52,964 nucleotides of DNA from a virus: the IMG/VR virus record IMGVR_UViG_3300037351_000019, positions 1 to 52,964 of that record, one strand, 5' to 3'. The translations under genes were made by a program, and so were the position numbers. Below the pieces are notes generated by a model. The model was not told the DNA's origin and did no database searches. It saw only the letters and a program-made list of their open reading frames with translations. Of this stretch, positions 3,951 through 48,616 are shown piece by piece; positions within the stretch are counted from its first letter, which is position 1, and each line of letters begins with the position of its first letter.

Positions 3951-4050
3951 TTGTCACACAAAGGCTGAAAGTGTGTGACAAAAGTTCTAGTGTGTGACAA
4001 ATGGTGACTCCAAAGAAAAAGGTCGACGGTCGTCGCAAGATTGTCACACA
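3951..4050. promoter_or_regulatory. Cluster of four TTGTCACACA sites, candidate terminase-binding pac/cos region
   Basis: Perfect 10-mers lie at 3951-3960 (+), 3972-3981 (-), 3991-4000 (-) and 4041-4050 (+). Their centres are 21, 19 and 50 bases apart, close to whole helical turns. The third site abuts the ATG of the small terminase gene and the fourth lies inside it. Small terminases of many phages bind repeated sites in or beside their own gene, so packaging is the best guess. Single perfect copies at 16507 and 40767 leave transcription control or another DNA-binding role open. Confidence 0.65.
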
Positions 4051-4558
4051 CGCTGGCGGCAGGCCACCGTCATTGACCGATGAGGTCCAAGAGCAGATTT
4101 TCGTCAACCGCAGGCTAGGAATCTCGTGGGAGCGATCAGCCAGACTCGCCGGCGTCAACATAACGACCGTGAAAAACTGGAAGGCCCGCGGCGAAGCGGC
4201 CTTGGAAAAGACCCCTACTAAGCGAAACGCCTTCGACAACAAGTGCATCGCCTTTCTCGCAGCAAGCGCCGTAGTCGAAGATGAGTGGCTCCGCAGGTGC
4301 GAAACCGTCCTGGCCTTCGCGCTGGAATCAGGCTCAGGAAAAGAGCGATGGAACAACGCTTCTGACGCCGATCGAGCCCTTGCGACGTCTACGGCGAAGT
4401 TCAAGCTCACACATCAAGCGAGCGACGAGTACTCAACCAAGTCAGCGACGGAACTCACCGGCAAGGACGGAGGACCCGTCGACATCGCACTCTCCGGTGA
4501 GGACGTGTTCAAGGTTCTGTTGGAAGCCAAAGCCGTTGAGGAAGCGAGTGAGGAATGA
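4001..4558 (+). CDS. terS: Terminase small subunit
   Basis: Encodes 185 residues. A basic N-terminus is followed by a helix-turn-helix (about residues 27-62, with LGISWERSARLAGVNITTVKN) typical of small terminases that recognise the packaging site. The rest is helical and acidic, the oligomerisation and large-subunit contact region. An in-frame stop at 3995 forces the start to 4001 or the GTG at 4004, and no ribosome-binding site precedes either. One TTGTCACACA site touches the start codon and another lies within codons 14-17, so the protein may bind its own gene. Unusually, the large subunit lies 3.2 kb away. Confidence 0.8.
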   Translation: MVTPKKKVDGRRKIVTHAGGRPPSLTDEVQEQIFVNRRLGISWERSARLAGVNITTVKNWKARGEAALEKTPTKRNAFDNKCIAFLAASAVVEDEWLRRCETVLAFALESGSGKERWNNASDADRALATSTAKFKLTHQASDEYSTKSATELTGKDGGPVDIALSGEDVFKVLLEAKAVEEASEE

Positions 4559-4836: not shown

Positions 4837-5125
4837 CAATCATCCTCGAGATGATCGGCTCACCGGCTTTGAGCCAACTGGAGAAAGGCCGATGCGCGAC
4901 TGGCTTCCGAAGTTTGAAGACGTGAGCATGAGTTGGCCCGTGTCAAGTCAACAGGCCGAAGGATTAGCAAAACTAATAATCCCGAAGTATCGACCGATTC
5001 GTTGGTGGCACGTTCGCCGCCGCCTACGTGATCGCGGCCAAGAGAAGAAACTCTACAACGAACTGGTGACAGCCATGTTGGAGCCGATCGACCCTGACGG
5101 ACCGAACACGAGTTGCTTCCGCTGA
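4826..5125 (+). CDS. Hypothetical protein
   Basis: Encodes 99 residues from a GTG overlapping the previous gene by 11 bases. An in-frame ATG at 4892 is an alternative start. The C-terminal part is basic and helical (RWWHVRRRLRDRGQEKKLYNELV), consistent with nucleic acid binding. No family was recognised. Confidence 0.6.
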   Translation: MTPDNHPRDDRLTGFEPTGERPMRDWLPKFEDVSMSWPVSSQQAEGLAKLIIPKYRPIRWWHVRRRLRDRGQEKKLYNELVTAMLEPIDPDGPNTSCFR

Positions 5126-5367
5126 TGGCTAACACCGTCTCCGCTCGAATCTCCGACGACCTGCACGAGCGACTTCTCAAGCAGGTCTCAAAACTCCACT
5201 GCACGAAGACCGAGTTCGTCCTTGTTGCTATAGAGACAGCAATCGAGCGCGAAGAGAACGCCTCCAAGCACACACCCATCGCAGTCTTGAAGGCCATGCC
5301 AGTTCGAACTCCGTCAGGGATGGTCATGCCCGAGGGCGTGGTATTCGATCGGTGGCCGAATGCCTGA
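5125..5367 (+). CDS. Ribbon-helix-helix protein
   Basis: Encodes 80 residues, starting MANTVSARISDDLHERL. A strand (VSARIS) and two helices (DLHERLLKQVSKLH, KTEFVLVAIETAIERE) form a CopG/Arc-type ribbon-helix-helix. It is a dimeric DNA-binding fold usually used for autoregulation. The ATG overlaps the previous stop (TGATG). A second protein of this type is encoded at 5500, so the island may be controlled locally. Confidence 0.7.
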   Translation: MANTVSARISDDLHERLLKQVSKLHCTKTEFVLVAIETAIEREENASKHTPIAVLKAMPVRTPSGMVMPEGVVFDRWPNA

Positions 5368-5503: not shown

Positions 5504-5652
5504 CTGAGCGCCAGAACCGCACCGAACTCCTGCACGTCAGAGTGAAACCCGAACTCAGGAACATGATCGAGAACGAAGCCCAGACTCTGAACATCAAACC
5601 CTCGGCGGTCGTGAGGCAAGTCCTGGTCGCGCACTACACGAAGAAGCCATGA
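5500..5652 (+). CDS. Ribbon-helix-helix protein
   Basis: Encodes 50 residues. The strand LLHVRVKPEL and helices NMIENEAQTLN and PSAVVRQVLVAHY give a minimal Arc/MetJ-type DNA-binding fold with the conserved turn KPSAVVRQ. It is coupled by ATGA to the ParB-like gene downstream and may regulate this island. Confidence 0.7.
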   Translation: MTERQNRTELLHVRVKPELRNMIENEAQTLNIKPSAVVRQVLVAHYTKKP

Positions 5653-6170
5653 AACTCGAGAACGTCAGACTAGATTCACTCACCCCAGACCCGAAGAACG
5701 CCCGTAGCCACGAGCAGGGCATCCCTGAGTTAGTCGAGAGCTTGACGGCCTTTGGTCAGCAGAAGAACCTCGTCGTCTGGCACGACACCGTCATTGCTGG
5801 TAACGGCTTACTCGAAGCGGCGAGGCAGTTGGGCTGGACGAAGATCGCCATCTCACGCACCCCTGACGAGTGGAGTTACGAGCAGGCCCAGGCTTTTGCG
5901 TTAGCTGACAACAAGACCGCCGAACTCTCCGAGTGGGACACGTCGACGCTGACCGAGATCCGTTTCGACCTCGACTCCAAGGGATGGGACACGGACCAGT
6001 ACGGTTTTGAACCCTTGCAATTGATGGAACACATCGAATTTGATGCCTCACCGCAACTTGGTGATGTTGGCTATGCGATAATCGTGACCTGCGCCGGGGA
6101 GCAAGAACAGGCGGTCTTATTAGAGACATTTGCCGCTGAGGGCCTTAACGCTCGTCCATTGATGCTGTAG
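5649..6170 (+). CDS. ParB-like (ParB/Srx superfamily) protein
   Basis: Encodes 173 residues. The N-terminal domain (about residues 1-110) starts with LTPDPKNARSHE and carries the family core VIAGNGLLEAARQLGW at about 48-63, where ParB/sulfiredoxin-type proteins bind CTP or ATP. An ALADNKTAELSEWD segment follows, also typical. The C-terminal domain (about 135-173, YAIIVTC...EGLNARPL) is the small alpha/beta tail found on stand-alone phage ParB proteins associated with DNA modification genes. It lies 7 bases before the ATPase-GNAT gene, so the two probably work together. It is not expected to act in plasmid-style partition. Confidence 0.8.
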   Translation: MKLENVRLDSLTPDPKNARSHEQGIPELVESLTAFGQQKNLVVWHDTVIAGNGLLEAARQLGWTKIAISRTPDEWSYEQAQAFALADNKTAELSEWDTSTLTEIRFDLDSKGWDTDQYGFEPLQLMEHIEFDASPQLGDVGYAIIVTCAGEQEQAVLLETFAAEGLNARPLML

Positions 6171-6177
6171 GAGGAAT

Positions 6178-7320
6178 ATGCCAATCATTGATATCACAGT
6201 GGACAGCCAGATTTCTACATCAATTCGAGCCAAGCAGCTCAGTTCGATGTTCGATATACCGCCCGAGGAACGTCACAAACTCGAATGGAAGATCGATGCG
6301 CCCTGGGAGGATAAGCCTTGGAGCATCGGGCTGATAGTAGGGCCGTCGGGGTCAGGTAAGACGACCATAATGCGTCATGTATTTGGTGAACCAAAGACAC
6401 TTAACTGGGGTGAGCCGAGTGTGATAGATGATTTTGGAATCCAGCACAGCATTGATGAAATCTCGGGTGTCTGCTCGGCGGTCGGATTCAATACCGTGCC
6501 GGCATGGCTTCGCCCCTTTTATGTATTGAGTAATGGTGAACAGTTCCGTGTGATTCTAGCCAGATTGATGCTCGACGCCGCGCCCGATGAGATGATCGTG
6601 GTCGATGAATTCACGAGTGTCGTTGACCGACAGGTTGCGAAGATAGGCGCGAACGCCGTGCAAAAATGGGTGCGCAAGAACCATCAGCAATTCGTGGCCG
6701 TCAGTTGCCATTATGACATCAAGGACTGGCTGCAACCCGACTGGGTGATCGACGTCGCCAAACGCACGTTCTCTTGGAGGTCGGTTCAACCCCGCCCCAG
6801 GATCGAAGCGGAAATCCGACCAGCCGATTACGCCCTCTGGTCCCTTTTCGCTCCGTATCACTATATGAGCGCCAAACTCCATCGGTCGGCTCGGTGTTAC
6901 GCCATCTTCGTTAACGATGAACCGGTGGCATTCACGGGCATCATGCGTCGACCTCACCCCAAGGCCAAGGACATCATGGGCATTTCACGGATAGTGACGC
7001 TTCCTGATTGGCAGGGGCTGGGACTTGCCTTCATTCTCAGTGAGAATTTAGGTGCGTGTTACAAAGTCATTGGCGAACGGCTGAGGAATTATCCAGCTCA
7101 TCCGGCGTACATCCGAGCGATGGATCGAAGCCCGAATTGGAGCCTCAAACAAAAGCCTGGCTATGTAGGGTCCAAGGGCTTTGTGGGAACGTCACGGATG
7201 CATGAACACTGGCATCAATCTTCAAGGCCCAATGCCGTGTTTGAGTATTGCGGACCGGCCTGGTCCGAGCGACGCGAGGCTGAAGCATTGATTGAACGAA
7301 GGGCTTTGCTTGACCATTAG
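6178..7320 (+). CDS. ABC-type ATPase fused to a GNAT acyltransferase domain
   Basis: Encodes 380 residues; a strong ribosome-binding site (GGAGG) sits before the ATG. Residues 1-200 are an ABC-class ATPase: Walker A GPSGSGKTT (55-63), signature-like LSNGEQ (117-122), Walker B MIVVDE (139-144) and an H-loop His (178). No membrane segment is present, so it is not a transporter. Residues about 210-380 form a GNAT domain, with RIVTLPDWQGLGLA (271-284) as the acyl-CoA-binding motif A. ATPase-GNAT fusions beside ParB-like proteins suggest energy-dependent acylation of a nucleic acid or protein; the Mu Mom DNA-modification enzyme also has a GNAT fold. DNA base modification is my preferred hypothesis, not a demonstrated function. 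The gene looks more A/T-rich than its neighbours. Confidence 0.8.
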   Translation: MPIIDITVDSQISTSIRAKQLSSMFDIPPEERHKLEWKIDAPWEDKPWSIGLIVGPSGSGKTTIMRHVFGEPKTLNWGEPSVIDDFGIQHSIDEISGVCSAVGFNTVPAWLRPFYVLSNGEQFRVILARLMLDAAPDEMIVVDEFTSVVDRQVAKIGANAVQKWVRKNHQQFVAVSCHYDIKDWLQPDWVIDVAKRTFSWRSVQPRPRIEAEIRPADYALWSLFAPYHYMSAKLHRSARCYAIFVNDEPVAFTGIMRRPHPKAKDIMGISRIVTLPDWQGLGLAFILSENLGACYKVIGERLRNYPAHPAYIRAMDRSPNWSLKQKPGYVGSKGFVGTSRMHEHWHQSSRPNAVFEYCGPAWSERREAEALIERRALLDH

Positions 7321-7325
7321 GAGGC

Positions 7326-7350
7326 AAGCCCTGGTCTCCTTGCAGGGCTT
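7326..7350 (+). terminator. Hairpin after the ATPase-GNAT gene
   Basis: AAGCCCTG (7326-7333) and CAGGGCTT (7343-7350) form a perfect 8-bp stem with a 9-base loop, five bases after the stop codon. There is no T-run, as is common for actinobacterial hairpin terminators. A separate promoter-like TATAAT follows at 7390. Confidence 0.6.
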
Positions 7351-7389
7351 AGGGATAGAAGGCAACAGGAGATATACTCTCTGGTCAGG

Positions 7390-7395
7390 TATAAT
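7390..7395 (+). promoter_or_regulatory. Leaderless-type -10 box (TATAAT) for the ASCH gene
   Basis: A perfect consensus TATAAT, preceded by GG, is six bases before the ATG at 7402. RNA starting 7 bases after it would begin at the start codon. No clear -35 or ribosome-binding site was seen. Confidence 0.6.
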
Positions 7396-7401
7396 GAAGA
7401 T

Positions 7402-7767
7402 ATGGAACGCAAAGCTCTTCTTTCGATTCATCCAGAATTTGCAGACGCCATTCTCGATGGGATCAAAGGGATCGAATTTCGACGCAGGGCATTGGCACCC
7501 GACATCTCGAAAGTCTTGATCTATTCGACCTCTCCCATTAAAGCGATCATTGGTGAATTCGAAATAATGGAACAAGTGATCTATTGCCCCCAGTACATGT
7601 GGGCTAAGTACGGCGAGATCGGTGGGATTGATCGGAAGCGGTTCTTCGCCTATTTCGAGGGTACCAAGACCGCAGTTGGCTTCATCATTCAGAATGCTCG
7701 GCGATTCGACCGCCCGGAATCTCTTCCTCTCGGAGTGAAGGCTCCGATGAGTTTCCTCTATCTTTAG
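7402..7767 (+). CDS. ASCH/PUA-like domain protein
   Basis: Encodes 121 residues, the usual size of a single ASCH domain. The start LLSIHPEFADAILDGIKGIE is the hallmark: SI-x-P, a helix with A-x-x-I-x-x-G-x-K (K22), and E-F-R at 25-27. Later strands (IIGEFEI, FFAYFEG) complete the PUA-like barrel. The fold binds nucleic acids or modified bases. The E. coli ASCH protein YqfB hydrolyses N4-acetylcytidine, and related EVE/YTH domains read modified bases. Beside an ATPase-GNAT gene this suggests a reader or eraser of the mark the GNAT domain would write. That link is inference. It is transcribed from its own leaderless-type promoter. Confidence 0.75.
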   Translation: MERKALLSIHPEFADAILDGIKGIEFRRRALAPDISKVLIYSTSPIKAIIGEFEIMEQVIYCPQYMWAKYGEIGGIDRKRFFAYFEGTKTAVGFIIQNARRFDRPESLPLGVKAPMSFLYL

Positions 7768-7805: not shown

Positions 7806-9569
7806 GTGAAACTACTCTCACCCTCTGCGAGAGAGTTCATCAAACTCCCCGAAGACGAACGTCGAGCCAAATGGAACGCGCTGAGCGAAGAGGCACGACT
7901 CGCGATTCGTGTTGAAACCGAGCGAATCAGGCGCGCGATGGAGTTCCCGACCCCAGGCGCGTTGGCAATGGCCCTTGACCCCACAACCGTTCAAACGCCC
8001 GCATTGCAATTGGTCGACTCGAAACTCGTCGAGGTCGGTAAAGCGATTGACGTGATGTACTCGAGACGCCGGAGACTGCAGGAACTGCTCGTGAGCGGAG
8101 TCGATGAGAACTACGCCGTCGAACAAGTCACCGATGAAGTCCCAAGTCAAGGGATAACGCGCCTGATCATGTCGCTCCCATTTCAGGAAGGGAAATCTAC
8201 GAGGGCAGGTCGCTACGGTCTCGAGTGGTTCATGCGCCAGTTCCCGAGCCTTCGAATCACCCTCACTTCATACGACGGGATCAACGCCACTCGAATTAGT
8301 TACCAGATACGTTCCGACATCGAACTCTTCGACGGAACGAATGACAACGTCGACCTTGGACTAAGGCTCATGCCCGACCAGAAGGCGATGGGCAGGTTCA
8401 TGCTCCGAACCGGTGGAGGAATCTACGCCATCGGCATTGGCGGCGGTTTAACCGGACACCCATCTGATCTGGGTTATATAGATGACCCCATCAAGGACAT
8501 CCAGGCCGCTGAGTCGATCCTTCGTTCCAATCAGCAAGAAGAGTGGTATCAGACGACGTTCCGACCTCGCCTCGCTCCGTGGGCGCCGGTGATGATCTTC
8601 ACTACTCGCTGGGCTGACAATGACCTGGTAGGTCGTCTTACGGCCAAGCGCGACGAGGACCGTTCATCGGGAGCTAAGAACTTCGATGACTGGGTGGTCG
8701 TGAACATCGCGGCCCAAGCCGACCACGATCCTTCGAAGGGCGAGACGGACATTCTCGGACGTAGTCCCGGCGAGTACATGATGTCGGCTCGAGGTCGCTC
8801 ACGCGAGGACTGGGAGACAACCAAGAACGCCACACCGAACCGCTATTGGCTGTGCATGTACCAGGGCAAACCCACTCCAGGGACTGGCACGATCTTCCTC
8901 ACCAAGTGGTGGCGGCGCTACGACACCGTCCTGTGGAAGCGAAATGAAGGCGGGACATTCGACGTCCCGGGTTATGAACTAAGCCAGTCATGGGATATGA
9001 CCTTCAAGGACACGAAGGGAACGGACTACGTCGTCGGAGGATTGATAGCCAAGAAGGGCGCGGACTCATTCCTCATCTACGTCATGCGGGCCCGGTTGGA
9101 TTTCACGTCTACTATCCAGGAGTTCGAACGCATGTGCCGACTCTTTCCAAAGTCTCGAGCGAAGTACATCGAAGAGAAGGCCAACGGTGCCGCGGTCATA
9201 AACGTCCTGAAGAAGAAGATTCCTGGACTGATTGCGATCAATCCAACGGAGTCAAAGACCTCTCGCGCCGAAGCCGGTTCGGTTTACGTCCGCTCAGGCA
9301 ACATCTGGCTCCCGACGAAAGAGATTGCCTCCGAGACACCAGAGTTAGCGTGGGACGTCGAGGGATTCATCAATGAACACACGGCCTTCGACAAAGGAAC
9401 CCACGACGACCAGGTCGACATGCTCTCTCAGTACATCAACGAGAAGTACATCATCGGCGGCACGGCAAGAGTCTCTTCACCGGTCGGCTCGGGTCCGAAA
9501 CCCCGCGCAGCAGAGAAATCCGAAGAGTCCGAAATCGCGCGACGAATCCGCGAGAAGCGCAGCGCGTAA
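7806..9569 (+). CDS. terL: Terminase large subunit
   Basis: Encodes 587 residues from a GTG. The packaging ATPase spans about residues 110-300, with a Walker A variant SLPFQEGKST (123-132) and Walker B LGYIDDP (222-228). The TTRWADNDLVGRL segment is the coupling motif region. The C-terminal RNaseH-like nuclease runs from about 395, with acidic residues in LSQSWDMTFKD, YIEEKANG and GTHDDQVDML. It pumps DNA into the prohead and cuts the concatemer, docked on the portal encoded at 12465. The N-terminal 100 residues form an extra helical domain. No ribosome-binding site is obvious. Confidence 0.93.
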   Translation: MKLLSPSAREFIKLPEDERRAKWNALSEEARLAIRVETERIRRAMEFPTPGALAMALDPTTVQTPALQLVDSKLVEVGKAIDVMYSRRRRLQELLVSGVDENYAVEQVTDEVPSQGITRLIMSLPFQEGKSTRAGRYGLEWFMRQFPSLRITLTSYDGINATRISYQIRSDIELFDGTNDNVDLGLRLMPDQKAMGRFMLRTGGGIYAIGIGGGLTGHPSDLGYIDDPIKDIQAAESILRSNQQEEWYQTTFRPRLAPWAPVMIFTTRWADNDLVGRLTAKRDEDRSSGAKNFDDWVVVNIAAQADHDPSKGETDILGRSPGEYMMSARGRSREDWETTKNATPNRYWLCMYQGKPTPGTGTIFLTKWWRRYDTVLWKRNEGGTFDVPGYELSQSWDMTFKDTKGTDYVVGGLIAKKGADSFLIYVMRARLDFTSTIQEFERMCRLFPKSRAKYIEEKANGAAVINVLKKKIPGLIAINPTESKTSRAEAGSVYVRSGNIWLPTKEIASETPELAWDVEGFINEHTAFDKGTHDDQVDMLSQYINEKYIIGGTARVSSPVGSGPKPRAAEKSEESEIARRIREKRSA

Positions 9570-12116: not shown

Positions 12117-12475
12117 CACATTCCTTCTTGCTCTTCGTGATCTACAGCCTCTGCGTCTACAGGCTCACCAGGCTTTGCGTCGAGGACTCAATAACCGAAC
12201 CAATCCGAGACTGGCTGAAGTCAAAGTCATTCGGCGAACTCGTTGAGCGCGACAACGTCACCGGCAATGTAATCAGCCGAACACCCGCGCCGAAGCCGAA
12301 GTCATTGTGGTCATGGGCCTGGACTTTGGGAACCTGCCCCTGGTGCCTGAGCATGTGGATCGCCGCCATCATCGTGACAATCGCGTACTTCAACGGATCG
12401 TGGTTCCAGTACGTCTGTGTACCTTTCGCGTTCTCGGCAGTCGCTGGCGTCCTCAGTGAGCGCAATGGCAACTAA
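12113..12475 (+). CDS. DUF1360-like membrane protein
   Basis: Encodes 120 residues from a GTG overlapping the previous stop. The pattern YRLTRLCVEDSITEPIRDWL near the N-terminus and LGTCPWCLSMWIAAIIVTI in the middle is typical of the DUF1360 (YngL-like) family, which is common in actinophages beside head genes. One transmembrane helix sits at each end. The role is unknown. The portal gene begins inside its last 11 bases. Confidence 0.7.
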   Translation: MTHSFLLFVIYSLCVYRLTRLCVEDSITEPIRDWLKSKSFGELVERDNVTGNVISRTPAPKPKSLWSWAWTLGTCPWCLSMWIAAIIVTIAYFNGSWFQYVCVPFAFSAVAGVLSERNGN

Positions 12476-15152
12476 GACCACACGCTGGGAAGGCCGACAC
12501 GAACGCGCCAAGACCAAGCCGAAGAAGACGTTTCGTGCGCTTACGGCTGCTTCGTCGGAGATCGAGGTCGGGAACAAGGTCGAGGCGCAGAGACAGCGGA
12601 TGCTGCGTCAGAACTGGCAGTTAATTGCATGGACGATGTTCGACTCCATTCCTGAGCTTTCCTATGCCGAAGGGTTCCTGTCACACTGCGCGGCGAGGAT
12701 GCGAATATTCCCAGGCGCCTATCCGCTAACGGGTGAGACGGATAACCCAATCGCGATTGACGATCCGCTGCTCGATGCACCCGACCAAGTGATTGAAGCC
12801 TGCACGAACGCGATGGCTGACTTAGGAAATGGACGTCTGGCGATCGCGAACATCATGGAGCAACTGTCGCTGAACTTCTCCGTTACCGGTGAGGCGTTCC
12901 TTCTAGGACTGACGGACCCCGAAACGCTGCAAAACGTCTACTCGATTCGTTCAGTCTCAGAGATCGTCATTTACGACGATGACGTGAAACTCCGCGAAGG
13001 ACCGATGACGAATACCGGAGTTCTTGGATTCGTGGATCTGCCCGAGGACGCCCTAGTAGAGCGGATGTGGCAGCCTCATCCGCAGTTCAGGCTTCTCGCA
13101 CAATCACCGATGAGGGCACTCATAAACATCTGCGAAGACCTGACGATCATGCGCCGGCTCATCCGAGCAACGGGTCGTTCACGGTTGGCTGGCAGGGGGA
13201 TTCTGTTTCTCCCGTCCGAGATGGCCGTCCCGAACTTGAACGACGACAACGGCAACATCGACTCGGACGAATTCCTTTCTACCTTGACGACAGCGATGAT
13301 GACGCCTATCGCTCGTGAAGGCGACGCTTCTGGAGTAGTTCCGTTAGTCGTCCAAGCGCCAGGTGAACAGATTGACCACGTCAAGTGGATTGAGTTCGCT
13401 TCGACCTTTGACGAACAGGCCGGGAAGATTCGCGAGGAACTAACGAACATCATCGCGACAGGACTTGACTTGCCGCAAGAGATATTTTCTCTCTCCGATT
13501 TGAACCATTGGTCGGCCTTTCAGGTAGATTCAAACACCTTCCGCTACCACATCGAACCCCATGTCATAAAGCTCGTCGAAGCTCTGACAGGTGCTTTCTT
13601 ACGTCCGTACTTCGCGACCTGCGGACTCGACAAGAGCATCGTCGACGAGTGGATGACGAGGATCATCTTCTGGTACGACCCGACTGAGTTAGTAACCCCG
13701 CCGGACCTGTCAACCTCCGCCATCACTGCCTACAACGCGAAGGTCATCTCTGCCGCTGCGCTTCGCAAGTACCTCGGCTTCAAGGACTCCGACGCTCCGA
13801 GCGCCGAAGAGATCGAGATCCGACTCATCTCGGACACCAGGACCTGGCCGGTCAACGCACTCATTGCGCTACTGCACCAACTCGACCCCGAACTCACGTT
13901 CCCGGCCATCCCTGGACCTGGAATCATCCCCGGACTCAAGGGCGGTCCTGGCGGTGGCGTGGACGTGCCGTTGGAGACTCCTGCACTACCGGCTGGACCA
14001 ACGGACACCACAACGACGCAAGCGACAACGGTTGTCCCAGAACCAACTACGGCCACCGTCACCAATCCGCTCCCCGGCAACGAGAACGGGAGTCTCCTGT
14101 CATCGGGTTACATCGACGACGAACACCGACTGATGGTTATTCGAGTGGTGAAGATGGAACTCGCCCGCAGAGGAATTGATGTGTTCTCACAGCCGATGCT
14201 TCAGTTGACCGCTTCCGTTGTCGACAGGTCAGGCCCGAGCGACCGCGAACTTCAACTCTCACGGAAATTAACGCAGATCGACGCCGACCTTCGCGCACGC
14301 TTGCAAGTCGCGGCCAACGCCGAGATGCGAACGCAACTTAAGAAGGCCGCGCACCGGATTAGGCAATCAGTCTCGAAGGACAAGGACTTGAAGGCCAAGA
14401 TCGCCACCACGCGCAATGAGTTCGTCGCGCTGCGTCTCTCAGGCGACATCGACCCCATCGTTGCCGCGAGTTACGTCACCAACGACTGGGCGAGTCTCGA
14501 AGAACAGTTCAAGTCGTGGACCGGACTTGCACAACGTCAGGCGATAGCGGCCGCGCAACAGATCGCCGGCGATGATGAACTCGGTTCGTCGGCCAACGCG
14601 GTTATCGCCATGAGTGAAGGAGTCGATAAGGGTTGGGCTGTTCTTCGCGATGCGTTGGACGAGATAGCGCAACACCTGGCCTACAACCCCGACCCGAACA
14701 TGACGGATGATGCGGCGCTCGATGCGTTGAACCCCGACACCTTGGTTCCAACAGGAGTCATCCGCGCTGCCGTCGGCGTTGCTGGCGGTTCACCGCTCGA
14801 AGCGTTCAAGCAAGTCCTTCTCGATACGGGAGCGACGGTGCCTGCGGTTCCTCAGACGCAGTTCGTCGGTGGCATAGGAACAGGCGCGACGATCAGTAAC
14901 TTGCTGACGAGCGCAGGCGCTTCGACTGCATCATTCACCTGGGTCCACGGTCCATCTGAAAAGCCCTTCTCGTTAGTCAAGGGCGTCGTCGGCGGTCACC
15001 TAGCTCTCGACGGACAAGAGTTCGACTCGTTCACTGACCCACTGTTAGCGAACAATGGCGACTGGCCCGACAATCAGTTCTTCCTTCCTGGCGATCACGC
15101 CGGATGTATTTGCGATGCCCAGGCAAATTGGGCGATGCCGCAAAATCAGTGA
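12465..15152 (+). CDS. Portal protein fused to a MuF-like head morphogenesis domain
   Basis: Encodes 895 residues; the ATG at 12465 is chosen over an upstream in-frame GTG. Residues about 40-480 are a portal protein (LSYAEGFLSHCAARMRI, the ITATGLDLPQEIF-type wing region, LNHWSAF). A Pro/Thr/Gly-rich linker near 500-545 follows, then a helical region. The last 120 residues form a MuF-like domain (WVHGPS, GHLALDGQEF, PGDHAGCICD). The portal is the DNA gateway and terminase dock. MuF domains are minor capsid components packaged or injected with DNA. The fusion keeps one such domain per portal subunit. The Cys-rich PGDH-x-GCxCD end is the usual MuF terminus. Confidence 0.88.
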   Translation: MATKTTRWEGRHERAKTKPKKTFRALTAASSEIEVGNKVEAQRQRMLRQNWQLIAWTMFDSIPELSYAEGFLSHCAARMRIFPGAYPLTGETDNPIAIDDPLLDAPDQVIEACTNAMADLGNGRLAIANIMEQLSLNFSVTGEAFLLGLTDPETLQNVYSIRSVSEIVIYDDDVKLREGPMTNTGVLGFVDLPEDALVERMWQPHPQFRLLAQSPMRALINICEDLTIMRRLIRATGRSRLAGRGILFLPSEMAVPNLNDDNGNIDSDEFLSTLTTAMMTPIAREGDASGVVPLVVQAPGEQIDHVKWIEFASTFDEQAGKIREELTNIIATGLDLPQEIFSLSDLNHWSAFQVDSNTFRYHIEPHVIKLVEALTGAFLRPYFATCGLDKSIVDEWMTRIIFWYDPTELVTPPDLSTSAITAYNAKVISAAALRKYLGFKDSDAPSAEEIEIRLISDTRTWPVNALIALLHQLDPELTFPAIPGPGIIPGLKGGPGGGVDVPLETPALPAGPTDTTTTQATTVVPEPTTATVTNPLPGNENGSLLSSGYIDDEHRLMVIRVVKMELARRGIDVFSQPMLQLTASVVDRSGPSDRELQLSRKLTQIDADLRARLQVAANAEMRTQLKKAAHRIRQSVSKDKDLKAKIATTRNEFVALRLSGDIDPIVAASYVTNDWASLEEQFKSWTGLAQRQAIAAAQQIAGDDELGSSANAVIAMSEGVDKGWAVLRDALDEIAQHLAYNPDPNMTDDAALDALNPDTLVPTGVIRAAVGVAGGSPLEAFKQVLLDTGATVPAVPQTQFVGGIGTGATISNLLTSAGASTASFTWVHGPSEKPFSLVKGVVGGHLALDGQEFDSFTDPLLANNGDWPDNQFFLPGDHAGCICDAQANWAMPQNQ

Positions 15153-16516: not shown

Positions 16517-16579
16517 ATTGATTCCGACACTTTGACTTGCTCAGAGAGTATTCTGGCGCCAAGTGCGTCAAGGAGAGCA

Positions 16580-18805
16580 ATGACTCGCAAACTGTCGGAA
16601 CCTAAATCTCGTGGCGAGATAATCTCGTCCTTCGCCTCAATGAAGTTCGCGGCGCCAGCGCCTACAACGACACCAGCCGACACCGCTCCGAAGCCGACCG
16701 CTGACGAACCGACCGATACCGCAGACACCGACGTCGATACCGCCATCTCTTCACTGCGCGACGATCTGAACGCCGCCATCAAAGCTCAGGCCGCGGACCC
16801 CGATGCGACGACGGACGACAACGACACGAAGGTCTCTGACGTGTTGGCTGAGATGGACAAGTTGCTCACGACTCTCGAGACCGACCAGAAGGCCGACGAC
16901 GCTGGGGATGCGGAACAGACCCCCGACCCTTCGAAAGCCCCGCCGACTGAACAGAACGAGACGCCCGCGAAACTCGCACTCGCGCCCGAGGACACGACGA
17001 CGCCAGTCATCAATCCCGTTGACGAATCGGGCAACGTCGATCCTGACGCCATCTGTGCGACGGACGGATGCGGCCACCTTGCAAGCGTGCACAACGACAC
17101 CGACACTGGCGAGAACTCAGGAGCGTGCACCGCACCAGAATGCCAGTGCCAGGAACTTACGTTCGGCTCGAACACCACCGATGGAGAACTAGCTCCCACG
17201 GGTGAAGGCGGTGGCCCGGACAATCAAGGCGGTGACGGGATGGCCTCGCGTGGGAAGTCATTCGCTGACGCCGTCAGCCCGGTGACGAGTGACGACTCTG
17301 CGCCGGTCGCTGGCGATCCCATTGGCGGGGATGATGAATTGAACCTCCCGCCCGAGATGTCCGGTGGGATGAACATGGGACCAGCGTTCACGATTCCTGT
17401 GGCGATAATCGAAGGCCAGCCCACAGGCGACGGACGAGACATCGCTCTCAATGCTCTGTCATGGGGTCCACCACCGTATGCGTTGATGGGCATGGCGACC
17501 AGCACGCACGATCCGATGGGCTTCGATCCCAATGATCCTGCGGTCCTCTGTGGAAGAATCGATTCCTTCGAACGCGCGTCAGGTCAGGGTGATACCCAAG
17601 TCATCATCGGCAAGGGATATTTCTTAGCGAATGAAGACGGGATGTACTTCGCGGACCTCTTGGACCAGATGGGCCGACTTCCGGTTTCGGGAGATGTGAC
17701 GGTGGATGAATCAGAAGTCATCGTCGGTGAAGTCGACGAGTACGGTTGGCCGATGGACATGAGTGAGACGTTGACCAAAGGCACGCTTGCTGCAGTAACA
17801 ATTCTCCCGTTCGGTCCAGCCTTCGAAGGCGCGTACATCGTTCTCGGAGACGGTGGGGAGACCCAAGCCATTCCTGTGACGTCCGATGACGTCCCGGCCA
17901 TGCCTCCCGCACTTGCCGCAGGTGGTCAGATCGTCCACTGGATCGCCGCCTCGGATTGCGTTCCCTGTGACCAAGGGCTTGAGGTAATGCTTGCCAGTGG
18001 TGGACCGTCCAAGCCTCCCAAGGCGTGGTTCGAAGATCCGAAGTTCTCCATTGATGACGGAAGGCTCATGTCGTTCATCGCCCAGGGCGACAAGGGCAAG
18101 ATGATCTCCGGTTACGCCTGCCCTCCTACGGTTACCGAAGAAGGCGAGGTCTACGGACACCTTGCTCCGTGGGGCGTGTGCCACATCGGCCAACGTGGGA
18201 AGTGCGTCACTGCTCCGCATTCAGGTGTTGACTACGCGCACTTCAAGCGCGGCCAACATGTGATTACTGCAGAAGGTGAAACGATCCGCGTCGGAGTCTT
18301 AACTGCGAACACGGGCCACGCTGACCTTCGTCTTGGAGCAAATGCGACAATGGCGCACTACGACAACACGGCCTTCCAAGCGGCTGACGTCGTGATGTTC
18401 GAAGATGAATTCGGCATTGCGTATCACGGAGCGTTACGTCCCGATGCCACCGAAGCCCAGGTCAGGATGCTCCGCGCCTCCGCGTTGTCAGGCGACTGGC
18501 GCGAGATTGGCGGTCAGTTGGAACTCGTTGCTGCTTTGGCAGTGAATCAACCCGGCTTCCCAATGGCGATAACGGCTCACGGTTCGGTTACCGCACTCAC
18601 GGCCGCGGGCTCGTGGCAGATGTTCGTCCTTGGTCATCCTGAGATTTCAGACCTGACCGAAGAGGACGGCGCGACGCTGGCGAAACTTGCACGAGGTCCG
18701 ATGATCCGACTCGTCCGCAGGGACGCCACTGAACGACTCGCGAAGAACCGAAGTGACGTCGCAAAGAACGCTCGCGAGCGAATCGCAAAGTTAGAAAGGG
18801 TCTGA
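16580..18805 (+). CDS. Capsid maturation protease-like protein
   Basis: Encodes 741 residues. The ATG at 16580 is chosen because AAGGAG precedes it; an upstream ATG in frame lacks a site. Residues 1-150 are acidic, Thr/Ala/Asp-rich and disordered. A Cys cluster (CATDGCGHLASVHND, later C...CQC) at about 155-190 is likely zinc-binding. The C-terminal half carries YGHLAPWGVCHIG and ALSGDWREIGGQLELVAALA, hallmarks of an actinophage family annotated as capsid maturation protease. It would process the scaffold and capsid protein (23568) during head assembly. The C-terminal helix (ERLAKNRSDVAKNARERIAKL) is basic. Catalytic residues were not identified with confidence. Confidence 0.7.
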   Translation: MTRKLSEPKSRGEIISSFASMKFAAPAPTTTPADTAPKPTADEPTDTADTDVDTAISSLRDDLNAAIKAQAADPDATTDDNDTKVSDVLAEMDKLLTTLETDQKADDAGDAEQTPDPSKAPPTEQNETPAKLALAPEDTTTPVINPVDESGNVDPDAICATDGCGHLASVHNDTDTGENSGACTAPECQCQELTFGSNTTDGELAPTGEGGGPDNQGGDGMASRGKSFADAVSPVTSDDSAPVAGDPIGGDDELNLPPEMSGGMNMGPAFTIPVAIIEGQPTGDGRDIALNALSWGPPPYALMGMATSTHDPMGFDPNDPAVLCGRIDSFERASGQGDTQVIIGKGYFLANEDGMYFADLLDQMGRLPVSGDVTVDESEVIVGEVDEYGWPMDMSETLTKGTLAAVTILPFGPAFEGAYIVLGDGGETQAIPVTSDDVPAMPPALAAGGQIVHWIAASDCVPCDQGLEVMLASGGPSKPPKAWFEDPKFSIDDGRLMSFIAQGDKGKMISGYACPPTVTEEGEVYGHLAPWGVCHIGQRGKCVTAPHSGVDYAHFKRGQHVITAEGETIRVGVLTANTGHADLRLGANATMAHYDNTAFQAADVVMFEDEFGIAYHGALRPDATEAQVRMLRASALSGDWREIGGQLELVAALAVNQPGFPMAITAHGSVTALTAAGSWQMFVLGHPEISDLTEEDGATLAKLARGPMIRLVRRDATERLAKNRSDVAKNARERIAKLERV

Positions 18806-46274: not shown

Positions 46275-47648
46275 GTGAGCGATGCCTACGAATCGTTTCT
46301 GTCTCGAAGAGCTCAACTTCGAGACGAGGGTGGATTTACCCCGACCGTAATCCCCGATCACTTATTTGACTTCCAGCGCGACCTATTGGAGTTCGCGGTT
46401 CGAAAAGGACGCGCGGCATTGTTCGCGGACTGCGGTCTAGGAAAGACCCCTATCGAACTTGCCTACGCGCAGAACGTTCACGAGCAAACAGGCAAGCCCG
46501 TGTTGATTCTCACCCCGTTGGCCGTCGGATATCAGATGATCGGCGAGGCTAAGAAATTCGGTTACGAGGCTCATCTATCTCGCGACGGTTCAATTCAGAG
46601 TCCCATCGTCATAACGAACTACGAACAACTGGAAAAGTTCAACTGGTTCGACTTCGGCGGCGTAGTGTGTGACGAAAGTTCCGCGATCAAATCATTCGAA
46701 GGAGCGACCAGAGCAAGAGTGACGGAGTTTCTTCGCTTGCACCAATACCGACTACTGGCGACGGCGACGGCCGCGCCGAATGATTACATCGAACTTGGAA
46801 CATCAGCCGAGGCACTTGGCGAAATGGGCCACGTTGACATGCTCGGTCGATTCTTCATTAACAGCGATCGCTCCGTGTCATCTCGAGGCCGCACCAGTGG
46901 CGGGGGTTCGGTTGAATGGCGACTCAAGGGACATGCTGAAACTCCATTCTGGCGGTGGGTTGTCAGTTGGGCTCGGGCGGTTCGCAAGCCGAGCGATCTT
47001 GGCTACGAGGACGGAGATTTTATTCTTCCGCCCCTCGTTGAAAAAACGCACTGTGTAGAGCCAACTCGCGTGAAAGATGGTTCACTATTTGACTTGCCGG
47101 CGATAGGTCTGCAAGAGGAACGTGAAGAGACACGGCGCACACTCACCGAACGATGCGAAATGGCCGCTTCGATTCTTTCTGATGCTGAAACAGGCGTCGC
47201 CTGGTGTCACTTGAATGACGAGGGACGCGCTCTCACTCAAATGATTAATGGCGCAGTTGAGGTTTCTGGGTCGGATTCTGACGGGTCGAAAGAGGAGAAA
47301 CTTACCGCGTTCGGCCGGGGCGAGATTCGAGTTCTGGTAACCAAGCCCAAGATTGGCGCCTGGGGCCTGAACTGGCAACACTCGCATACGATGACGTATT
47401 TTCCGAGTCACAGCTATGAACAGATGTACCAGGCCATTAGGCGAATGTGGCGATTCGGTCAACAGAATACGGTCGAGGTAAATCTCATAACGACACCAGG
47501 TGGCGAAAAGGTTCTCGCGAACTTGAAGCGCAAGAGCGACCAGGCCGATCAAATGTTTCGACTACTCGTAGCAGAAATGAATAACGCTCTGTCAATTCGA
47601 CGGACCGAATTTGAAAACGAAATGGAGATTCCGTCATGGCTCAAGTAG
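46275..47648 (+). CDS. SNF2/DEAD-like superfamily 2 helicase
   Basis: Encodes 457 residues from a GTG. Motifs in order: Walker A ADCGLGKT (51-58), motif Ia-like ILTPLAVGYQ, motif II DESS (133-136), motif III TATAAPND (163-170), and a C-terminal half with KIGAWGLNWQHS and motif VI QAIRRMWRFGQQN. The RRMWRFGQ form is typical of SNF2-like DNA translocases. The protein is at the short end for the family, with no extra domains. It overlaps the methyltransferase gene by 13 bases, so the two probably act together on DNA. Codon choice looks more A/T-rich than in neighbouring genes. Confidence 0.85.
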   Translation: MSDAYESFLSRRAQLRDEGGFTPTVIPDHLFDFQRDLLEFAVRKGRAALFADCGLGKTPIELAYAQNVHEQTGKPVLILTPLAVGYQMIGEAKKFGYEAHLSRDGSIQSPIVITNYEQLEKFNWFDFGGVVCDESSAIKSFEGATRARVTEFLRLHQYRLLATATAAPNDYIELGTSAEALGEMGHVDMLGRFFINSDRSVSSRGRTSGGGSVEWRLKGHAETPFWRWVVSWARAVRKPSDLGYEDGDFILPPLVEKTHCVEPTRVKDGSLFDLPAIGLQEEREETRRTLTERCEMAASILSDAETGVAWCHLNDEGRALTQMINGAVEVSGSDSDGSKEEKLTAFGRGEIRVLVTKPKIGAWGLNWQHSHTMTYFPSHSYEQMYQAIRRMWRFGQQNTVEVNLITTPGGEKVLANLKRKSDQADQMFRLLVAEMNNALSIRRTEFENEMEIPSWLK

Positions 47649-48616
47649 GTGACCAAGTAGTTAATGATCGATTCGCGATTTATCACGCAGATTGCATGGA
47701 CGTTCTTCGGTCGTTGCCAAACGATTGTCTAGGCGCGACGATTTACAGCCCGCCGTTCGGGGGTCTATATCACTATTCATCGGATGACCGCGACCTGTCG
47801 AACACTCGTGACTACGACGAGTTTTTCGAGATGTACCGATTCGTCATTGACGAGATTTTCAGGGTAACTATTCCGGGGAGATGTTCGGGTGTTCATGCCT
47901 CATTAGTTCCATCCGTGGCGTCGGCCTCGTTCGGTTCGTACATCGACTTTCCTGGTGATGTGATTCGAGCTCATCAGTCGGCCGGGTTCGATTTCGTCGC
48001 TCGGCACATTATCTGGAAAGAACCTCTCGCGGTTCGACGAAGGACCATGCAAGGAAACCTTGCGCACAAAACGATTGTTATCGACGGAACAAAAGGCGGT
48101 ATGGCGTCACCGGATGAACTGTTAGTTTTCCGAAAGCCAGGTGAAGAACCCGTCCCTCATCCGATTGGTTTAACGGGAGAGTACGCCGGCGATGAACAAC
48201 CGCCGAAAGAGTTGGAACGTTGGCGCGGGCATCAGGGCGATCAGAAACTAAACCGGTGGTCACATTGGATTTGGCGACGTTATGCCTCGTCGGTATGGGA
48301 CGACGTTCGCGGAGGTCGTGTTTTGCCATTTCAAGATTCCAAAGACGAGGATGACGAGAAGCACGTCCACCCCTTACAGCTCGACGTGATTGAAAGATTC
48401 TTGGATCTTCGAACGGAGCCGGGCGATAAGGTGCTGACCCCGTTCATGGGTGTCGGATCGGAGGTTTACGCGGCGGTACGAATGGGACGCATTGGCATCG
48501 GCGCGGAGTTGAAGAAGTCATATTTCATTCAGGCGAAGCGGAACATGGAAACCGTTGACCGACCTCTCGAAGAAACTGCCGAACCTCTGTTCTCGGAGGT
48601 CGACGATGACGAATGA
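47636..48616 (+). CDS. DNA amino-methyltransferase (N6-adenine or N4-cytosine)
   Basis: Encodes 326 residues. The N-terminal HADCMDVLRSLPND and catalytic SPPF (residues 38-41) are followed much later by the AdoMet-binding FMGVGS (270-275). This order (motif IV before motif I) is that of beta-class amino-methyltransferases. SPPF rather than DPPY leaves the target base open, with N4-cytosine somewhat favoured. No restriction endonuclease is nearby. Coupled to the SNF2-like helicase, it may protect phage DNA from restriction or mark it during replication. Confidence 0.85.
   Translation: MAQVGDQVVNDRFAIYHADCMDVLRSLPNDCLGATIYSPPFGGLYHYSSDDRDLSNTRDYDEFFEMYRFVIDEIFRVTIPGRCSGVHASLVPSVASASFGSYIDFPGDVIRAHQSAGFDFVARHIIWKEPLAVRRRTMQGNLAHKTIVIDGTKGGMASPDELLVFRKPGEEPVPHPIGLTGEYAGDEQPPKELERWRGHQGDQKLNRWSHWIWRRYASSVWDDVRGGRVLPFQDSKDEDDEKHVHPLQLDVIERFLDLRTEPGDKVLTPFMGVGSEVYAAVRMGRIGIGAELKKSYFIQAKRNMETVDRPLEETAEPLFSEVDDDE

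Follow-up and report, generated by a model that had tools for sequence, protein, structure and literature searches.

Positions 5649 to 7767 of the IMG/VR virus record IMGVR_UViG_3300037351_000019, a stretch of 52,964 bases analysed here as a whole and called the window, carry three genes on the plus strand: a ParB/Srx-type protein of 173 amino acids (5649-6170; phrog_620, E=1.7e-29), a 380-residue protein, designated ABC-GNAT, in which an ABC-class ATPase (about residues 1-204) is joined to a GNAT acyltransferase (about residues 206-360) (6178-7320; phrog_11143, E=1.2e-98), and an ASCH-domain protein of 121 amino acids (7402-7767; phrog_3136, E=1.1e-29). The set is flanked on the same strand by the genes for the terminase small subunit, TerS (4001-4558; phrog_4102, E=1.2e-9), and large subunit, TerL (7806-9569; phrog_38, E=1.3e-65; Terminase_6C, 7.7e-10). 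An earlier note on this DNA, made from the sequence alone, had placed three such genes in an A/T-rich region between the terminase genes; all three open reading frames (ORFs) and their location were confirmed, and the A/T enrichment is real, though mild, with a GC content of 53.0% for 5649-7767 against 57.2% for the whole window (rank 12 of 509 among segments of the same size, a region near 46 kb being equally low). The ParB start codon lies in the sequence ATGA (5649-5652), overlapping the upstream reading frame, and 7 bases, with a GGAGG-like site in the gap, separate the ParB stop from the ABC-GNAT start. As shown below, the ABC-GNAT cassette is real, coherent and widespread, and is carried by many unrelated phages.

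The family match of ABC-GNAT is full-length (phrog_11143, PHROG 11143, residues 6-361), and both halves are recognised by Pfam above the cut-off (ABC_tran, 6.2e-6; Acetyltransf_1, 7.1e-5). The intact Walker A and Walker B motifs claimed by the earlier note were indeed found, the former as GPSGSGKT and the latter with its catalytic Glu, together with the signature LSNGE, the D-loop and the H-loop. After alignment of 74 sequences, G55, S57, G58, G60, K61, S118, G120, D143, E144, D150 and H178 of the ABC half turned out to be invariant, and the T62 position is Ser or Thr throughout; F224, H228, Y229, R271, P276, D277, Q279 and G280 of the GNAT half are likewise invariant in all 74, G282 is Gly in 71 and H308 is His in 68. 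The invariance of H228, Y229, R271, Q279 and G280 argues for catalysis. Structure prediction by AlphaFold gave a confident two-domain model of the whole protein (predicted local distance difference test score, pLDDT, 93.1; predicted template modelling score, pTM, 0.86), of which residues 1-204 match ABC nucleotide-binding domains with Z-scores up to 14.6, such domains filling the match list. The GNAT half folded separately (pLDDT 89) matches many GNATs with Z-scores up to 13.6. Judged from motifs and models, both domains are real and look active; as to the substrate of the GNAT half, the fold alone gives no answer.

Relatives of ABC-GNAT were detected by tblastn in 70 of 50,697 phage records, with a query coverage of 80% or more in 41, and are encoded in at least 594 viral-contig stretches and in 448 genome-contig stretches. 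For the neighbourhood survey a total of 342 loci were pooled and reduced at 80% identity to 256, comprising 173 from IMG/VR, 17 from annotated phages, 65 from genome contigs and the window itself. The sums below combine the three locus groups and exclude the window unless stated, and loci with less than 600, 2500 or 4500 bases of flank were excluded from the respective counts. Partner profiles were seeded from clusters and picks made here, and each scan covered the best 80 loci, so that the frequencies describe the sampled clades and not nature. A ParB gene was found directly upstream (gap below 300 bases) in 197 of the 226 loci having 600 bases upstream; the control counts were 0 of 238 directly downstream and 1 of 138 upstream at 2-4.5 kb. 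Of 209 loci, 118 have TerL no more than 2 kb downstream, compared with 22 of 170 at 2-4.5 kb, and TerS is often adjacent.

Directly downstream of ABC-GNAT three kinds of partner were identified. A formyltransferase gene occupies this position in 45 of 238 loci, always on the same strand (0 of 170 at 2-4.5 kb), an ASCH-type gene in 33 of 238 (43 of 209 within 2 kb; 3 of 170 at 2-4.5 kb), and the gene for PanD, aspartate decarboxylase, in 8 of 238 (0 of 170 at 2-4.5 kb); a gene resembling coenzyme A (CoA)-transferase occurs within 2 kb in 10 of 209. Among the 229 loci with 1.5 kb downstream, the window included, 44 have ASCH, 40 formyltransferase, 7 PanD plus CoA-transferase, one ASCH plus PanD plus CoA-transferase and one ASCH plus CoA-transferase, while ASCH and formyltransferase never occur together (0 of 229). 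The remaining 136 have no partner, and thus the partners are optional or other partners exist. When 81 nearby ORFs (79 without partner-family assignment plus 2 of ASCH type) were tallied by Pfam, mostly singletons were obtained, the repeats being CoA_transf_3 in 3, PIG-L in 2 and short-chain dehydrogenase in 2. ASCH is the loosest of the partner labels, its counts resting on profiles built here of which Pfam confirms only some members: at E<=0.01 Pfam recognised one of the four ASCH-type proteins tested (L010 yes; L004, L005 and L038 no). The strand is opposite to that of ABC-GNAT for 40 of 46 ASCH-type matches, and at L059, L049, L005 and L038 the opposite-strand ASCH-type gene ends 11-41 bases within the ABC-GNAT 3′ end. 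The survey of the three-gene set, which the earlier note had named as a check, thus gave a clear ParB and ASCH association rather than the lack of it that would have told against the idea.

The distribution of the partners was followed on a FastTree phylogeny of 252 ABC-GNAT proteins, 233 of them labelled, by comparing the number of label changes with 30 shuffles. For the 47 formyltransferase carriers 4 label changes were counted (shuffled mean 44), so that this partner is essentially confined to one clade, whereas the 44 ASCH carriers gave 29 changes (shuffled 41) and the 8 PanD carriers 6 (shuffled 8.0); ASCH and PanD therefore both look repeatedly gained or lost. An adjacent ParB accompanies every class, at 34 of 42 formyltransferase loci, 36 of 40 ASCH loci, 7 of 7 PanD loci and 104 of 117 loci with none. 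Separate ORFs for the ABC and GNAT halves, often overlapping or frame-shifted, were observed in 23 of the 342 pooled loci (including L020, L026, L027, L015, L438 and L440); these may be programmed frameshifts, true split genes or sequencing errors. Lactococcus phage P335 is an isolated carrier with split ABC and GNAT ORFs. In phages SSU5 (L029, 3623-6767) and RHEph10 (L030, 2996-5630) a pair of ParB-like genes precedes a distant member of the same ABC ATPase group; downstream of the SSU5 ATPase comes a protein of phrog_886 whose GNAT signal is faint, an arrangement that is perhaps a split cousin of the ABC-GNAT system.

The sequences of the partners suggest what they may contribute. All 47 formyltransferases aligned retain HPSLLPxhRG, and the D-x-G region is also retained. 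Among solved structures, the Komp_PAO1_1 formyltransferase is closest to 10-formyltetrahydrofolate dehydrogenase (8e-24), and a folate donor is therefore likely, for a partner that would act as transferase or hydrolase. Gordonia phage Sisko gp3 (L021, 1814-2464), annotated as a tRNA-methyltransferase, is actually Formyl_trans_N (4.5e-10; phrog_9240, 3e-38); the genome of the window carries no Formyl_trans_N gene. PanD is clear in the isolated Rhodococcus/Gordonia phage Jace, which has the PanD plus CoA-transferase set, and in L094, L106 and L190 (Pfam, 2e-33 to 1e-29), and Jace PanD retains the Gly-Ser site at which PanD processes itself. The gene after PanD matches CoA-transferase III over a partial domain only (3.6e-10 to 4.9e-8), and a route from aspartate through beta-alanine to beta-alanyl-CoA may be proposed for these loci.

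The upstream protein (5649-6170) is placed in the ParB/Srx superfamily by its phrog_620 match; at E<=1 neither Pfam ParB_N nor any PDB entry matched it. It resembles the N-terminal part of the phrog_498 DNA methyltransferase (3.4e-25) and, over residues 1-129, PADLOC MTase_II (2.9e-12). Methylase names stand on 11 of the 40 phage records listed, out of 239 matching the window ParB, although a 172-residue ParB-only protein of Javan141 likewise bears a methylase name. We consider it a probable DNA-targeting or regulatory partner. DndB, DpdB and the ParB-DNA methyltransferase fusions likewise place a member of the ParB superfamily next to a DNA-modifying enzyme or join the two, but unlike in these the ParB of the window pairs with an acyltransferase, and none of the annotated neighbourhoods examined contains sulfur or deazaguanine genes.

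For the ASCH protein (7402-7767), Pfam ASCH gave E=0.0012 and 19.9 bits, just short of the cut-off of 21.2, and its best PDB match is the ZmASCH crystal structure (3.2e-17); the ZmASCH and phrog_3136 matches place it in the ASCH superfamily. An initial search of five related viral records for this protein found none and is uninformative. The earlier note had cast it as a possible eraser like YqfB, which hydrolyses N4-acetylcytidine. In the available part of its description (PMC6972931), YqfB depends on Lys21, Thr24, Glu74 and Arg26; located from the K-x-x-x-x-R spacing and not by alignment with YqfB, the segment with Lys, Thr and Arg corresponds in the window protein to K22-G-I-E25-F-R27, in which Lys and Arg are kept and Glu25 stands at the position of the Thr24 nucleophile. 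The consensus among ASCH-type partners is K-x-v-E-n-R. The two proteins have the ASCH fold family in common, as does ZmASCH, but a YqfB-type N4-acylcytidine amidohydrolase was rejected for the window protein on the missing Thr, and a reader, regulator or RNase is the more likely role on these residues.

The core of the proposal is older than this work. Section 3.4.7 of Iyer et al. 2021 (PMC7824862) gives, with reference to Iyer et al. 2013, the prediction that GNATs paired with an ABC ATPase make an uncharacterised acyl modification of a DNA base, and names Tenacibaculum phage pT24 as an example. The pT24 protein and ABC-GNAT of the window are 36% identical across 93% of the window protein (4e-56). 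It shares both domains and the predicted nucleobase acylation, whereas the window has directly adjacent ParB and ASCH genes and the ABC and GNAT parts of pT24 are annotated as two ORFs. Since this prediction was already published, the central idea of the earlier note is an independent rediscovery. What is new here is the ParB association and the alternative downstream partners; these partner types, including the formyltransferase link, were not found in the literature searched, which did not cover Iyer et al. 2013. Leptospira LE4 was considered as a known modified phage and rejected, the available part of its paper mentioning no base modification. COG2401 bears the name "ABC-type ATPase fused to a predicted acetyltransferase"; the term was not found in the literature searched.

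Three lines would point toward DNA as the substrate, namely the methyltransferase-like ParB, the terminase adjacency and the position in transposable phages. In Komp_PAO1_1 a tail-fibre assembly gene is followed by ABC-GNAT and formyltransferase, a slot close to that of com-mom in Mu, which comes after the tail-fibre region and gin. Homologues of the Komp or Mu tail module lie upstream in 5 of the 36 formyltransferase loci having 3 kb upstream. Mu-type tail or gin homologues lie upstream in L435 and L427, with ABC-GNAT near one contig end; in L427, at a contig end, the gin homologue lies 2.1 kb upstream. This slot is a positional analogy and no homology is claimed.

With a probability of roughly 0.55, we regard the cassette as a phage machine for DNA-base acylation, of which the partners are donor-supply, finishing or reading modules. 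Its basis, as observed, is the gene content, the ABC motifs, the two-domain predicted fold, the ParB association and the alternative partners. In such a machine ParB would bind or clamp phage DNA and recruit ABC-GNAT, and two ABC halves would form an ATP-sandwich dimer on the DNA. ATP binding or hydrolysis might then open or translocate the duplex and so give access to the GNAT active site (His228, Tyr229, Arg271 and the Q-G-x-G CoA loop), which would use an acyl-CoA to acylate an amino group of a base. The likely time for this would be late in DNA synthesis or shortly before packaging. What mark is made, or how it is read, would depend on the downstream partner: formyltransferase would add a formyl cap, aspartate decarboxylase with the CoA-transferase-like protein would provide a beta-alanyl-CoA donor, and the ASCH protein of the window would serve as reader, regulator or guard. 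Virion DNA would probably gain protection from host nucleases. We put forward more tentatively, as a possibility rather than an expectation, that ABC-GNAT and ParB are a modular writer of bulky aminoacyl or formyl-aminoacyl DNA marks, a class previously undescribed, with the interchangeable downstream genes giving it three or more dialects of a chemical or regulatory kind.

Several observations weigh against DNA-base acylation. ParB is not directly upstream in 29 of 226 loci, Komp_PAO1_1 among them, and none of the three partner sets is found in the 136 of 229 loci mentioned above. The resemblance to CoA-transferase is weak and covers a short stretch, the best PDB match having E=0.007, and PanD with the CoA-transferase-like protein could serve CoA supply only. 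No base analysis of any carrier phage was found in the literature, and the available part of the LE3/LE4 paper mentions no DNA modification. The GNAT fold is generic, its closest listed matches, within about 2 Z units of one another, including RimI and Naa-type protein acetyltransferases; structure prediction, another check named by the earlier note, thus confirmed two domains and a GNAT fold, while a grouping with RimI-like protein acetyltransferases may hold. The link to Mu Mom drawn in that note was not borne out. Mom (methylcarbamoylase, PDB 8bv8) is a GNAT-superfamily DNA modifier, but one without an ABC domain; the GNAT fold common to both is seen in the GNAT-half model, yet comparison of the GNAT domain with the Mom profile by hhalign gave a probability of 0.25% over 10 columns, the profile being shallow (Neff 1.7) as scans with Mom gave only close relatives of Mu Mom. 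Nor is 8bv8 among the 50 matches listed by either structure-comparison program for the GNAT model. Mom homology had been considered for a resemblance by eye, HY-S before the second strand and a fourth-strand Arg, which was lost in the profile comparison, and no homology is claimed.

TmcA/NAT10 is an ATPase joined to a GNAT, and the ATPase of TmcA is helicase-like. On this precedent ABC-GNAT might instead acetylate cytidine or adenosine in RNA (tRNA, rRNA or phage mRNA), with ASCH binding or cutting RNA, and the closest solved ASCH relative, ZmASCH, fits, as it cleaves single-stranded RNA in the available account (PMC5615036). An RNA target is nevertheless unlikely: the ATPase half is an ABC nucleotide-binding domain (Z 14.6) and not a helicase-like one, the match of the GNAT profile to RNA cytidine acetyltransferase is not significant (E=0.18), the ParB partner points toward DNA, and a terminase-side or mom-type slot suits DNA better. 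On the first two grounds the TmcA analogy of the earlier note was rejected; the link to YqfB fails as well and that to Mom lacks support. What stands of that note is the general idea that the ATPase-GNAT, with the aid of ParB, writes an acyl mark on nucleic acid of the phage, consistent with the published prediction and the ParB counts.

Acylation of host proteins such as RNA polymerase or those of the ribosome to redirect the cell, in the manner of the phiKMV GNAT Rac, with ParB and ASCH as separate regulators, would agree with the RimI and Naa-type N-terminal acetyltransferases among the best structural neighbours and with phage GNATs modifying host RNA polymerase, described in the available part of PMC7824862. 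We hold it to be improbable, since the fold matches are tied and uninformative on substrate, and since it leaves unexplained the near-obligate upstream ParB, the ABC half and the alternation of formyltransferase, PanD and ASCH.

The frequent TerL downstream and the often adjacent TerS would suit a packaging or replication accessory, with DNA being arranged for the terminase by ParB and the ABC ATPase and a GNAT half that has taken on a regulatory function. The invariant GNAT residues, which argue for catalysis, make this quite doubtful, as does a small control (80 loci found, 35 excluded for short flanks) in which only one of 45 relatives of the window TerL with 2.5 kb upstream carries ABC-GNAT, which makes the cassette an accessory of the terminase; ASCH is present in this single carrier and in 0 of the 44 others, and ParB in 10 of the 44. 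In addition, Komp_PAO1_1, P12024S and T4-like phages carry the cassette away from the terminase. An antiphage or superinfection-exclusion module, in which ASCH as an RNase or toxin effector is guarded by modification enzymes, is equally doubtful: the ASCH protein matches the PADLOC candidate defence family PDC-M11B (6e-37) and ABC-GNAT more weakly mad3 and mad8, but the mad matches fall in the ATPase part, which is generic (residues 112-195 and 49-68), ASCH is absent from most loci and late-gene placement beside TerL is unusual for defence.

Elsewhere in the window, the product of 5113-5367, between TerS and ParB, has a YlcI/YnfO-like N-terminus (NCBIfam, 3.5e-5, under the cut-off) and is perhaps a small DNA-binding regulator. 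A DNA methyltransferase gene (47636-48616; phrog_67, 1.4e-32) follows a helicase gene (46275-47648), and the phage therefore has at least one further DNA modification enzyme. The portal match of 12417-15152 is limited to residues 29-477 of 911, and the 757-residue product of 16532-18805 has portal and head-maturation-protease family matches from about residue 275, its N-terminal part being unexplained.

DNA base acylation by this type of protein was predicted a decade ago; neither an experiment on the predicted ABC ATPase-GNAT modification family nor a proposed acyl donor was found in the literature searched. The partner genes now suggest formyl and beta-alanyl as candidate chemistries, and the partner dialects are the freshest part of the finding. 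If DNA-base acylation is true, a widespread DNA protection chemistry would be added to those of phages, and the ABC ATPases would gain a new role beyond transport, translation and repair.

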